Shown here: positions 38,957 to 49,184 of the stretch, piece after piece
Layout: the number at the start of each line of letters is the position of its first letter
Numbering within the stretch: the first letter of the stretch is position 1
Assembly (NCBI GenBank): GCA_036488875.1
Contig: DASXGW010000015.1
Coordinates: 1 to 64,000, forward strand
Length of the DNA: 64,000 nt
From: Candidatus Baltobacteraceae bacterium
GTDB lineage: Bacteria > Vulcanimicrobiota > Vulcanimicrobiia > Vulcanimicrobiales > Vulcanimicrobiaceae
Direction: 5' to 3'
Program-made: the position numbers and the translations under genes
Notes under the pieces: model-generated
Seen by the model: only the letters and a program-made list of their open reading frames with translations
Database searches by the model: none
Told to the model about the DNA's origin: nothing

Positions 38957-39403
38957 ATGATTATATTCGCCACGATACGATGCAGCCGCCTCGACGACAT
39001 CGCCTCCGACGGATTCCAGGAGCAAGACGATGCGATCGCTCGCTACGCCACGAGCGACGAAGGCGGGGCGAAGAAAATTTACTGCAGCGACGAGCCGGTG
39101 AGCGATTACGAGCTATCTCCGGACTTCCACATAGCTTACGTGTTGGACGTTCCGGATGCGGTGCTCGCAAAGCACGCGAGTTCAGACCCGGTTGGGTGGC
39201 TGCTCCCGATAGACGTGGCAAATACGTACCGCGGGATCGGCGGGGCGTCGGGCGCGGCATGGCCGTGCGCCATCGATCTCGATCCTAACGTCAGCACGCC
39301 CATTGCCAATCTTGAGGACGTTGAACGAGGCGGCGGCTCGGGATGGACGAAGGTGGTCGGTGACGCTATCACGAGGCACAGGGCTGCAGCAGCGCTGAAA
39401 TAG
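38957..39403 (+). CDS. Hypothetical protein convergent with the MurC-NRPS gene
   Basis: A 148-residue acidic protein (start MIIFATIRCSRLDD) with no recognised domain. It is rich in Asp and Ala and has no signal or membrane segment. Its last 35 bases overlap the end of the MurC-NRPS gene on the other strand. Whether it is linked in function is unknown. Confidence 0.45.
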   Translation: MIIFATIRCSRLDDIASDGFQEQDDAIARYATSDEGGAKKIYCSDEPVSDYELSPDFHIAYVLDVPDAVLAKHASSDPVGWLLPIDVANTYRGIGGASGAAWPCAIDLDPNVSTPIANLEDVERGGGSGWTKVVGDAITRHRAAAALK

Positions 39404-42400
39404 CGCGGCCTAGAGATTCGCAGTTGGGAGCTTGAAAGTATTCGCCGTGCCCACCCGGAGTGATCGCTACCGTATATCCGAAAGGATATCTGTCGCGAAA
39501 TAGGTGGTCTGCGTCGGCGCCGCCCAGCAGCGGATTTAAGTCGCTCTCCGCTCCAAAAAACAGCGCCACCCGTCCGGGATATTCTTTGAGCGTCCCCTCA
39601 TCGAGGAGAATCAGCAGCTCGACGTCTCGTCCCCGATCGATCAGCGCGCACGCTACGCTGCGAGCGATAATACCGCCTTGGCAATTTCCGCCGATGATGA
39701 ACGGACCGCTCGGGTGCATGGATAGCATCTCCTCGGCGTAGAGCGTCGCAAGGGCCGCGATGCTGTGCTCTTTGTACGAGAAAACGAGGTGGCCCGACCG
39801 CATGCCGTGCAGCGGCTGCTCGGGCCCCAATTCGTCGGCAAGGGCTTGATGTTCTTGCGCGCCCTGAAAACACCAAAAGAGCGGCCTGAGCTTTCCGGCA
39901 CCATGAAGCGTACGCAAAAGACCGGTCGGGCTACGACGTTCCCCTTTCCATGCCGCAACGTAGTACAGCTGTTTGCGGGAAATCTCGGCCGCAAGACTGA
40001 GCGGCGAGGCGGAACGCGCGTCGCCTTGTTTGAGCGCATCGTTGATTGCCAAGGCCAGGCACTCGACGGTGCTGGCATGCGTAAAGAACTCTTCCGGTAA
40101 GATCACGTCGAAATGCCGTTCGATCCACGCGAAGAACTTGGCAATTGCCAGCGAGTCGAGGCCGAGGTCGTCGAGGTCTTCGCGCACGCCGAAAGCGCGA
40201 CGCACGCCGAATTCGTTTGCGACGTAGTCGCAGACGGCGGCCTCAACGAGTCCACGCGGCGCTAGCGGGACGCTCGTTTGAGCTGCCGGTGCTTGTGCTG
40301 CCAATGCGGCGCGATCGCACTTGCCGTTTGCATCTAATGGTATCTCACGAATGGGGACAATTGCGTCGGGTTGCATGTAACGCGGAAGCTTACCCAAGAG
40401 TGCGGCCCGCAGTTGGGACTCGGCCGATGCGTCGATTACCGCGCGGTACACGACATAGGCGATCAGGTGCGCACCCGTTGCGTTCTTTTCGACGCAAACG
40501 ATCGCGTCGTCGACGGCGTTCTGCGTCCGTAATACGGCTTCGATCTCGCCTAGCTCGATTCGATATCCTCGCAACTTGACTTGATCGTCGCTGCGGCCGC
40601 TAAATTGCGTTGCGCCGTCGGCAAGCATACGTGCGAGGTCGCCGGTTCTATAGAGCCGGCGTTCGCCGTCAGGTAAAGAGAGCGTGCGAAACCGCTCTGC
40701 AGTTTGATCCGCGGTTCGAAGATACTCCCGAGCCAAACCGCGGCCTCCGATCCAGATCTCACCAAGAGCGCCTCGCGGTACCGGCGCGAACGTTTCGTCG
40801 AGGATGTAGAGCGAGACGTTGTCGATCGGTCGTCCGATGGTGACGGGTTCGCCGGCAACGCAGTGCGCTATCGTGGCGCACACCGTCGCCTCCGCGGGGC
40901 CGTAAGCGTTTATGAAGGAGCGGCCCGGAGCCCAACGATCGACGAGATCGCCGGGGCAGGCCTCTCCGCCCACAATAATGCTCGTGAGAGAAGGGTAATC
41001 GCGATATGGAACGGTCGCGAGTCGCGACGGCGTGAGCTCGAGGTGCGTGATGTGAGCGCTATCGATGAAGCGCCCCAGTGGGACTCCAACCGCGGCATTA
41101 GCGGCAAAAACCAAACACCCTCCGCCGTAGATGGTGTATACCATGGTGTCTATTGCCTGGTCGAAACCGAACGCAGCAATCTGCGCCACGCGGCTGGCAG
41201 CCGTGATACCGAACGCCCGGGCTTCCGTTGCAGCGAGATTGTCGAGCGCTCCGTGCTCGACCACAACGCCTTTGGGCATACCCGTCGATCCGGAAGTGTA
41301 GATAATGTACGCCCGATCTCGGTCTCTTGGGAGCGTCACCGGCTCGTCTATACCGCGTAGATTGCAAGCGGTCAGGTCGATCTCTTTGAGAAGGCGGCGA
41401 GCCCCGCTCTGTTCGATCATGAAATCCGCGCGCTGTTGCGGCAGGTCGGGATCGATTGGGAGATACACGGCGCCGGCAGTGAGGACGCCCAGAAATGCCA
41501 CGATGCGGTCTATCGAAGGCGGCAGGCTAATCGCGACCACGTCATCGCGCCCGATACCGCCGGCGGTAAGGGTGGCCGCCACCGTTCGGACCGCTCGTGC
41601 GAGCTCGCCATACGTCATCAATGTTTCTTTGTCGGCGGCGGCAAGGGCAGTTGGCTGCGTCGTTGCGAGCTCGAGAAAACGCGCGAGCAGCGACTGTGGT
41701 GGGGCGGTGACCGCTCCATGGACGATCGATTGCTCCGGCGCCTCTTCGGATAGATGAATAAGGACCTGTGATGCAATCGTTCCGACTTCACCGGAACCAA
41801 TCGTAACGAAGACGTCGCCGCCTCGGAGAGTGGCGATGGCCGCAGCCGTCACGGCCGTCCGATCGCGCAGGCGTTGGTAGGGAACGCACGCATCGTCTAA
41901 GGCCGCTGCGACGGCGTCTTCATTCGAGACGAGGAGCACGTCGTCGGCTGCGGAAAGCGCCCGCGCAAAATCGGGGGCAAGTCGTTGGGCGTTATGCGGA
42001 GATGGGCGAAATACGGCCACGACTCTGCCTGTAGGCGCGGTCGTACGGCGCGCCTGTTCCAGCGTCACCGCGACCTCGGTCGGGTGGTGCGCGAAATCAT
42101 CGTAGCATGCTATGCGCCTCGCCGTTCCGATGTGCTGCCAGCGGCGCTCGACACCGACGAAGTCCGCGAGCGCATCGGCGACCTCGGCAAACGGCACGCC
42201 GAGTTCTAACGCGATGGCCATTGCTCCCAGGGCGTTGACGACGTTGTGCGCGCCGGCAACGCGCAGGGCCATCGTACCGAGCTGCTCGCCGCGTAGGAAC
42301 ACCTTTGCAGCGCTCGTATGCGCATCGAGGCGTTCGACGTCGGCGCGAAGGTCGTTGTCGCGACCCAAGCCAAACGTCAGCACCTCGCGAGGGACTGCAG

Positions 42401-43067
42401 CGATAATTGCTCGCGCTCCCGGATCGTCGCCACACATTGCAACGATGCCGTCGTCGGGCGTGCGGCAAACCATTGCGGCGAAGGCGGCCCGCATCCGTTC
42501 TTCACCGCCGTAATGCTCGGCGTGTTCGTTGTCGACGTTTGTAACGATGCAATGCTGTGGATGCCAGTAGGCGAGTGCACCGAACGCCTCGCAGGCTTCC
42601 AAGACGAAAGTCTCGCCGGCGGCGGCGTGCGCCTTGGTATTGCCCAGTGACGGCGTTGCGGCGCCGATGAGGAAACCTGGATCCCGGCCGGCACGGCAAA
42701 GAACGTACGCCAGCATTGCGGTGGTGGTCGTCTTGCCGTGACTGCCGGTAACGCAGGCGACTCGACGATGACGCAAGTGCATCGCGAGCGCCTCGGCACG
42801 CGGTCGTATCTGCAGTTCGTTCGATCGCGCAGCCAATAGGTCGGCGTCGTGGATCGGCACGGCCGGGCTGAAGATCAGCTGCTCGGCTTGTCGGACCAGC
42901 TCTAGATCGTGGCCGACGGCAATGCGCGCGCCCAACGCCCGCAGCGACGATAGCTCGTGGCTATCGACGATATCGCTGCCGCTCACACGAAAGCCGTCGG
43001 CGATGAGCAAACGCGCCAACCCGCTCATACCGGAACCGCCGATACCGACGAGATGAACCGTGGTCAC
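39369..43067 (-). CDS. MurC-type Mur ligase fused to NRPS adenylation, carrier and thioesterase domains
   Basis: A 1232-residue four-domain protein. Residues 1-445 are a full MurC-like Mur ligase: GIGGSGM (8-14), P-loop GSHGKTTTT (108-116), EACE (157-160) as in Bacillus MurC, NVDNEH (177-182), GAHNVVNALG and YDDFAHHPTEV (322-332). Residues about 455-925 are an NRPS adenylation domain with all core motifs: YTSGSTGMPKG (590-600), NAYGPAEATVC (720-730), YRTGDL, GYRIELGEIE and Lys916 in NGKCDR. About 935-1010 is a carrier domain with LGLDSL (Ser972), and 1060-1228 a thioesterase with GGNCQGG, Cys1129 as nucleophile, Asp1156 and His1207. There is no condensation domain. GTG start with GAAGG 7 bases upstream. 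MurC joins L-Ala to UDP-MurNAc; the fused module should activate and tether an amino acid. The product is unknown. Monocistronic. Confidence 0.93.
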   Translation of the reverse strand: MTTVHLVGIGGSGMSGLARLLIADGFRVSGSDIVDSHELSSLRALGARIAVGHDLELVRQAEQLIFSPAVPIHDADLLAARSNELQIRPRAEALAMHLRHRRVACVTGSHGKTTTTAMLAYVLCRAGRDPGFLIGAATPSLGNTKAHAAAGETFVLEACEAFGALAYWHPQHCIVTNVDNEHAEHYGGEERMRAAFAAMVCRTPDDGIVAMCGDDPGARAIIAAVPREVLTFGLGRDNDLRADVERLDAHTSAAKVFLRGEQLGTMALRVAGAHNVVNALGAMAIALELGVPFAEVADALADFVGVERRWQHIGTARRIACYDDFAHHPTEVAVTLEQARRTTAPTGRVVAVFRPSPHNAQRLAPDFARALSAADDVLLVSNEDAVAAALDDACVPYQRLRDRTAVTAAAIATLRGGDVFVTIGSGEVGTIASQVLIHLSEEAPEQSIVHGAVTAPPQSLLARFLELATTQPTALAAADKETLMTYGELARAVRTVAATLTAGGIGRDDVVAISLPPSIDRIVAFLGVLTAGAVYLPIDPDLPQQRADFMIEQSGARRLLKEIDLTACNLRGIDEPVTLPRDRDRAYIIYTSGSTGMPKGVVVEHGALDNLAATEARAFGITAASRVAQIAAFGFDQAIDTMVYTIYGGGCLVFAANAAVGVPLGRFIDSAHITHLELTPSRLATVPYRDYPSLTSIIVGGEACPGDLVDRWAPGRSFINAYGPAEATVCATIAHCVAGEPVTIGRPIDNVSLYILDETFAPVPRGALGEIWIGGRGLAREYLRTADQTAERFRTLSLPDGERRLYRTGDLARMLADGATQFSGRSDDQVKLRGYRIELGEIEAVLRTQNAVDDAIVCVEKNATGAHLIAYVVYRAVIDASAESQLRAALLGKLPRYMQPDAIVPIREIPLDANGKCDRAALAAQAPAAQTSVPLAPRGLVEAAVCDYVANEFGVRRAFGVREDLDDLGLDSLAIAKFFAWIERHFDVILPEEFFTHASTVECLALAINDALKQGDARSASPLSLAAEISRKQLYYVAAWKGERRSPTGLLRTLHGAGKLRPLFWCFQGAQEHQALADELGPEQPLHGMRSGHLVFSYKEHSIAALATLYAEEMLSMHPSGPFIIGGNCQGGIIARSVACALIDRGRDVELLILLDEGTLKEYPGRVALFFGAESDLNPLLGGADADHLFRDRYPFGYTVAITPGGHGEYFQAPNCESLGRAISALLQPCAS

Positions 43068-43166
43068 CCGTTGGCCTTCTCGACGGGGCCGCGATATCTT
43101 CGCCGGGCGATCTCAGCAGCGCAGGCACTGCGGGCTATCCGTCAAGAATGAACGCGAATCAAATGC

Positions 43167-43206
43167 GCGCCCGTAGCTCAAATGGGATAGAGCAGGGGAC
43201 TCCTAA
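43167..43206 (+). repeat. Broken 5' half of tRNA-Arg: left attachment site (attL) of the island
   Basis: The 5' half of a tRNA-Arg(CCT), from the acceptor strand (GCGCCCG) to the anticodon loop, matching the intact tRNA at 49107 except for two bases in the D loop. The last 22 bases (43185-43206, ending CTCCTAA) are identical to 49125-49146. The tRNA sequence stops there. It marks the left end of an integrated element. Confidence 0.8.
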
Positions 43207-44587: not shown

Positions 44588-44944
44588 ATGCCCAAGAATT
44601 TCGATGAGCTCGGAAACAAAATGACGCCCGAGCAGCTCGAGCGTAGCGACGCGAAGGCACAGATCCTATTGCAGATCCAAAAGATTCTGGCTCGCCCATA
44701 CAGGCGCGAGTTCCGACAAGACGACGACGGATCTTGGTTCGCACGTATCGTCGAGTTCCCGGGCTGCATGACGGTCGGCGCTACGCGTGAAGAGGCCGAC
44801 CAAATGCTCGATGATGCCGCCGTCAATTGGCTGACGGTTATGCTTGAGGACAGGGATCCCGATTCCGGAACCGATCGCGGCCCCGTAACCACTCCCAGCG
44901 CTCGCGAGCAGGGTTGCTCGTCGCCGGCCTCGGCCTTCGCGTGA
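44588..44944 (+). CDS. HicB-like antitoxin-domain protein
   Basis: A 118-residue protein whose central part DDDGSWFARIVEFPGCMTVG, then ATREEADQML, is the HicB fold signature (GxWxA...PGC...G.T..EA). An unusual 44-residue N-terminal extension precedes it. HicB proteins neutralise the HicA ribonuclease and repress their operon; no HicA gene is adjacent, so this is an orphan. Ribosome site GAGGTAAG before the ATG. Confidence 0.7.
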   Translation: MPKNFDELGNKMTPEQLERSDAKAQILLQIQKILARPYRREFRQDDDGSWFARIVEFPGCMTVGATREEADQMLDDAAVNWLTVMLEDRDPDSGTDRGPVTTPSAREQGCSSPASAFA

Positions 44945-49106: not shown

Positions 49107-49184
49107 GCGCCCGTAGCTCAAACTGGATAGAGCAGGGGACTCCTAAGCCCAAGGTTGCCAGTTCGATTCTGGCCGGGCGCACCA
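49107..49184 (+). tRNA. tRNA-Arg(CCT), island attachment site (attR)
   Basis: The acceptor GCGCCCG/CGGGCGC, D arm GCTC-AAACTGGATA-GAGC, anticodon loop CTCCTAA (anticodon CCT), T arm GCCAG-TTCGATT-CTGGC, discriminator A and encoded CCA. The anticodon stem is weak: 27-43 (G-A) and 31-39 (A-G) are mismatched, leaving three G-C pairs. The 5' half to the anticodon loop is repeated at 43167, the core being 49125-49146. The intact gene was rebuilt by the island. Confidence 0.9.

Follow-up and report, generated by a model that had tools for sequence, protein, structure and literature searches.

A window of 64,000 nucleotides from Candidatus Baltobacteraceae bacterium (contig DASXGW010000015.1, positions 1 to 64,000) carries a gene in which a Mur ligase is fused to the adenylation (A), peptidyl carrier (PCP) and thioesterase (TE) domains of a nonribosomal peptide synthetase (NRPS). 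Judged from its sequence, we give about even chances to the reading that the Mur domain replaces a condensation (C) domain and couples an acid of the uridine diphosphate-N-acetylmuramic acid (UDP-MurNAc) type to a carrier-bound amino acid, with release by the TE. UDP carries peptidoglycan precursors during their assembly, nonribosomal peptides grow on carrier proteins, and these two logics are treated as separate; if the reading is true, a conserved enzyme unites them and offers a new assembly-line route to amide bonds. An earlier note on this DNA had suggested that a carrier-loaded amino acid is passed to a UDP-MurNAc-like intermediate. We still infer this step, which fits the loss of the amino acid pocket of MurC, the placing of the Mur domain in the C-domain slot, a genome without C domains and the peptidoglycan-linked partner genes of relatives.

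Gene and domain layout

The fusion gene is a single open reading frame (ORF) on the minus strand, with GTG at 43067 and a stop codon at 39369-39371. A Pfam search of the translation, in which all domain matches exceeded gathering scores, bore out the earlier description of one 1232-residue frame with a Mur ligase, an A domain, a carrier domain (Ser972) and a TE; the coordinates given there hold as well. No Condensation domain was found in the protein by this search, and the Pfam Thioesterase match itself spans residues 1101-1156. The G+C content of the gene is 62.2%, versus 62.6% for the window. The features are as follows.

39369..43067 (minus): Mur ligase-A-PCP-TE fusion gene, 1232 aa, GTG start
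43075..43080 (minus): Shine-Dalgarno-like AGAAGG, 7 nt before the start codon, read from the sequence directly
42765..43061 (minus): Mur N-terminal (UDP-sugar binding) domain, residues 3-101, Pfam PF01225 Mur_ligase
42210..42752 (minus): Mur middle (ATP) domain, residues 106-286, Pfam PF08245 Mur_ligase_M
42564..42599 (minus): family signature EACEAFGALAYW, residues 157-168, located where MurC has EADESDxSF
41790..42146 (minus): Mur C-terminal (amine-substrate) domain, residues 308-426, Pfam PF02875 Mur_ligase_C
41976..42008 (minus): remodelled amine pocket RPSPHNAQRLA, residues 354-364, MurC equivalent QPHRYSRT
40719..41666 (minus): adenylation core, residues 468-783, Pfam PF00501 AMP-binding, TIGR01733 358.9 bits, code DQDEIGAVCK
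40320..40547 (minus): adenylation C-terminal subdomain, residues 841-916 (Lys916), Pfam PF13193 AMP-binding_C
40053..40238 (minus): peptidyl carrier domain, residues 944-1005, Pfam PF00550 PP-binding, phosphopantetheine Ser972 (GLDSLA)
39372..39980 (minus): thioesterase domain, residues 1030-1232, Cys1129 and His1207, Pfam PF00975

The Mur domain lacks the alanine pocket of MurC

The earlier note credited the Mur domain with all the MurC motifs; those it quoted are present, but the amino-acid-binding motif (QPHRYSRT in Haemophilus influenzae MurC) is absent. In the product complex 1p3d of MurC, H376, R377, R380, Y346 and H348 hold the incoming L-alanine (PMC3060825). These residues were compared in an alignment of 24 fusions (the window protein and 23 others), 40 MurC together with H. 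influenzae MurC, and three Mpl. His376 and Arg377, both kept in 40/40 MurC, are lost in all 24 fusions and replaced in 22 of them by Gln and Leu, respectively, while Tyr346 (40/40 MurC) has become Phe or Cys in every fusion. Arg380 is present in the 23 other fusions and missing only from the window protein, which has S, P, a gap, F and H at H376, R377, R380, Y346 and H348. The pocket motif reads RPSPHNAQR in the window, EPQLHSRV in most relatives and QPHRYSRT in H. influenzae MurC. H376, R377 and Y346 are all lost in the three Mpl as well; the amine donor of Mpl is a peptide and therefore has no free alpha-carboxylate beside the amine. The lost pocket fits what would be expected if the amine substrate of the fusions likewise has no free carboxylate there, as in an aminoacyl thioester.

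A second replacement concerns loop 175-184, where EADESDxSF of MurC has become E-x-CEAx, with the Cys and Ala in 24/24 fusions and Trp in 23/24. The uracil contact His70 is variable among the fusions, whereas other UDP-side features, namely the glycine loop and, numbered as in H. influenzae MurC, Asp49, Ser84 and Arg107, are kept. In total, the fusions retain 46 positions with near-invariant residues in MurC, including the ATP, Mg, catalytic and most UDP-side residues; among them are the equivalents of K129, E173, H198, R326, D345 and H348, and the HGK P-loop is kept too. The AlphaFold2 model of the Mur part (predicted local distance difference test score, pLDDT, 92.7) superimposes on MurC 1p3d with Z 49.7 and a root-mean-square deviation of 1.8 over 437 residues.

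In a tree of the same set, the Mur domains of the fusions group in a clade of their own (98/94), apart from a MurC clade (100/98) that takes in the MurC encoded in the dcw cluster of the window genome, and the three Mpl form a long branch of their own that does not group with the fusions. The search for a second murC proposed in the earlier note located this ordinary gene beside other mur genes on contig C8, and an ordinary murC is also present in every genome checked. The plain label "MurC" given earlier to the Mur domain is not upheld, as the domain stands outside the MurC clade and is without the alanine-binding residues. The window protein nevertheless scores 345.8 with TIGR01082 (murC), just above the cut-off of 335.1, and automatic murC annotation above an equivalog cut-off can therefore mislead on function. 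Seven of the ten proteobacterial relatives tested score under that cut-off, and with TIGR01081 (Mpl) the window protein scores 178.7 versus a cut-off of 388.7.

The NRPS part

The phosphopantetheine Ser of the PCP is present in 24/24 fusions, as are the Cys and His of the TE (Cys1129 and His1207), whose nucleophile motif GGNCQGG has Cys instead of Ser. The AlphaFold2 model of the TE (pLDDT 95.2) has the NocB TE as its best PDB match, and RSGH and GGNCQG are invariant in this TE family. The same TE also ends two C-A-PCP-TE proteins (L051, L072), which places the Mur domain of the fusions in the C-domain slot. A genome-wide search found no Condensation domain anywhere in the window genome. An ACPS-family gene (G000:C1:426304, a 252-aa frame) was judged by eye to be Sfp-like in sequence, that is, an Sfp-type phosphopantetheinyl transferase, and a separate AcpS is encoded too; hence the genome has the means to load the carrier but no C domain that could act in trans.

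The window protein has the A-domain code DQDEIGAVCK, the main group of relatives DVGSIAAVEK and another group D[AS]HGxGxxxK. The first two resemble codes for basic amino acids, and a weak prediction is that the amino acid used here is probably basic, Lys/Orn-like. Because relatives carry two other codes, the loaded amino acid probably differs between lineages.

The Cys TE is also found in other settings. Two A-PCP-sulfotransferase-TE proteins (L046, L061) represent another unusual module layout, and stand-alone proteins of ~380 aa, whose C-terminal part is poorly matched, occur in Rhodobacter, Bradyrhizobium and Sinirhodobacter (L056, L058, L064, L078). A Gemmobacter AMP-binding-PCP-TE gene (L042) of the wider TE family has a lytic murein transglycosylase gene ~4.5 kb away.

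Distribution of the fusion

Relatives were found with a DNA pattern derived from the TE (SGH, 32 residues, GGNCQG) in one genome per species. The scan gave 42 loci, many with the same Mur-A-PCP-TE protein; the pattern is strict, and further relatives may exist. No relatives had turned up in an earlier scan of genome contigs that used an alignment of two TE sequences. The same colinear architecture is encoded at 25 proteobacterial loci in Alphaproteobacteria and Burkholderiales, with plasmid pAMI4 counted, and at 26 with the window. Hosts include Rhodobacterales, Sphingobium, Falsiroseomonas, an Asaia-labelled metagenome-assembled genome (MAG), Zwartia and other Burkholderiales. The complete plasmid pAMI4 of Paracoccus aminophilus encodes a colinear 1367-aa homologue with 43% identity to the window protein in a pairwise alignment; the window protein is 36-42% identical to other fusions and forms a deep branch. 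The Xinfangfangia copy (L096/L049) is divided between contigs, and several frameshifts or stops interrupt that of Paracoccus cavernae (L105), either through sequencing errors or because it is a pseudogene.

A search of 149 genomes from the phylum of the window organism found no further fusion copy; the best matches there were ordinary MurC at ~37-44%. The fusion is rare and scattered: of 149 species sampled from the Rhodobacter family, it occurs in only two, both already among the known loci. The proposal to look for the architecture in related genomes was thus answered by the 25 other loci, none of them within the phylum. No description of a Mur ligase-NRPS fusion, of the pAMI4 copy or of a NagZ-NRPS link was found in the open-licence literature searched. 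The earlier statement that no enzyme with this layout has been described stands within that literature, although the architecture is not confined to this genome. As far as we have seen in these papers, the parts are of known kinds, their combination is undescribed, and the protein is a variant of an NRPS module; possibly, the fusion is a new kind of system.

Partner genes in relatives

All 24 proteobacterial loci with upstream DNA have a DUF218 (YdcF-type) gene immediately upstream of the fusion gene, usually overlapping it. At L107 and L108 DUF218 is fused to the synthetase, and in Tabrizicola soli (L099:6262-7857) the DUF218 gene that immediately precedes the Mur-NRPS gene also encodes a sulfotransferase-like domain, a sub-threshold match. 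To our knowledge, the biochemical activity of DUF218 proteins is unsettled. Two reports on Escherichia coli give the DUF218 proteins SanA and ElyC a role in peptidoglycan biogenesis or precursor metabolism (PMC12176290, PMC3879167).

Directly downstream, 11 loci have a NagZ-like GH3 gene that scores under the curated NagZ cut-off and has the KHFPGHG-DSH motifs. The one genome checked closely (G156) contains another, better-scoring NagZ-type gene besides the GH3 gene of the locus. Sporadic neighbors of the Mur-NRPS genes include a glycosyltransferase-like domain, sulfotransferases and a methyltransferase. In an Alcaligenaceae MAG the glycosyltransferase-like domain extends the Mur-NRPS protein at its C terminus (L102:6271-7617, weak Pfam match), and a separate gene homologous to this extension occurs at the T. 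soli locus. Together, the Mur ligase, DUF218 and the NagZ-like GH3 indicate muramic-acid chemistry.

Proposed mechanism and alternatives

What the analysis shows is the layout, catalytic residues conserved in all four parts, the lost pocket for a free amino acid and, in relatives, partner genes related to peptidoglycan. In the route we favor, the A domain would load an amino acid, probably basic and Lys/Orn-like in the window protein, onto the PCP, and the Mur domain would bind a UDP-MurNAc-type sugar acid and ATP and activate the lactyl carboxylate as an acyl phosphate. The acyl phosphate would then be attacked by the free amine of the amino acid held as aminoacyl-S-PCP rather than by free L-Ala, giving a muramyl-aminoacyl thioester, which the Cys TE would free as a conjugate via hydrolysis, cyclization or transfer. 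Preparing or processing the sugar part would fall, in relatives, to DUF218 and, in one group of them, to the NagZ-like GH3. Such a pathway would yield a small muramyl-amino-acid conjugate rather than ordinary peptidoglycan. It is possible, at somewhat less than even chances, that the fusion belongs to a so far undescribed thiotemplated branch of peptidoglycan-precursor metabolism in which Mur acts as the condensation domain, a muramyl-aminoacyl group is held on the carrier and DUF218 is obligate in Proteobacteria. If true, an unknown class of muramic-acid metabolites is indicated, and DUF218 proteins gain a defined pathway for testing.

Several points weigh against the favored route. Because His70 varies and loop 175-184 is replaced, the acid may not be UDP-MurNAc. 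The pocket loss fits any amine without a free carboxylate, the thioester being one case, and the prediction of the A-domain substrate is weak. The window gene shares the family core (EACEA, GGNCQGG and the PCP Ser), but its pocket motif departs from EPQLHSRV and lacks the Arg380 of the other 23. No DUF218 gene was found near it or genome-wide, and no GH3 gene adjoins it, although one GH3 gene lies elsewhere in the genome. The window copy could be degraded or could act on another substrate.

At 43154-43206, ~87 bases upstream of the fusion start and where DUF218 would be expected, there is a copy of the 5' half of tRNA-Arg(CCT). It is 91% identical over 53 nt, upstream bases included, to the intact tRNA-Arg(CCT) at 49107-49184, ~5.9 kb apart. 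The segment between the two copies resembles an element inserted at a tRNA gene, and a recombination event may have removed the DUF218 partner of the window gene. The segment also contains a small ORF (44588-44944) with sub-threshold matches to UPF0150/HicB-like antitoxins.

The same thiotemplate logic could act on another acid, for instance a muramic acid with further modification or glycosylation, or an unrelated carboxylate. The changes in loop 175-184 (DESDxSF to CEAxxAL) and at His70 point that way, and the NagZ-like GH3, sulfotransferase, glycosyltransferase and methyltransferase genes or domains of relatives suggest decorated sugars. We consider this unlikely, though worth keeping in view, since the glycine loop, Asp49, Ser84 and Arg107 are retained as in MurC, and the uracil contacts of Mpl vary too even though its acid substrate is UDP-MurNAc (PMC3060825). 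Rather improbable is a sequential use of the two halves, in which A-PCP-TE would make or modify a small amine or short peptide and release it, and the Mur domain would join this free molecule to UDP-MurNAc in the way that Mpl joins a peptide. The loss of the L-Ala pocket is common to Mpl and the fusions, and a TE could release a free product; however, a peptide is not buildable by known NRPS chemistry with one A domain and no C domain, and it would be futile to load an amino acid and release it unmodified.

It is very improbable that the protein is a second MurC supplying peptidoglycan synthesis with UDP-MurNAc-L-Ala or a variant first residue, with the NRPS part as a regulator or scaffold. 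The TIGR01082 score above the equivalog cut-off and a fold nearest to MurC speak for it, but a plain second MurC was rejected on the residues lost in 24/24 fusions, the separate clade and the normal murC of every genome checked. An assembly chimera or frameshift artefact is scarcely credible. The single copy within the phylum would favor one, but this explanation was rejected on the 25 independent homologous loci, which come from many assemblies. The frameshift or assembly join considered in the earlier note is likewise contradicted by the colinear full-length homologue on pAMI4 and others in genome contigs.

Comparison with known systems

The fusion and MurC share the three-domain fold, the ATP/Mg and general catalytic residues and most UDP-side residues. 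Unlike MurC, the fusion has lost H376, R377 and Y346, has EACEAx in place of the EADESD loop, belongs to a separate clade and is joined to A-PCP-TE. Mpl (murein peptide ligase) resembles the fusion Mur domain in having DDFAHHP and no L-Ala pocket, and the amine that it joins to UDP-MurNAc is not free L-Ala, but it has no NRPS part. C-A-PCP-TE termination modules, both EntF-like and those with this Cys TE, share the order of A, PCP and TE with the fusion, in which a Mur ligase replaces the C domain; its TE further differs from EntF-like modules in the Cys nucleophile and the RSGH motif. MysE and the atromentin-type synthetases are single A-PCP-TE modules without a C domain; they have no Mur ligase and are not known to be linked to peptidoglycan genes. 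In the MurC-Ddl fusion (PRK14573) and cyanophycin synthetase, a Mur ligase domain is joined to another ATP-dependent ligase, and the partner there is an ATP-grasp domain, whereas in the fusion it is a carrier-based assembly line.

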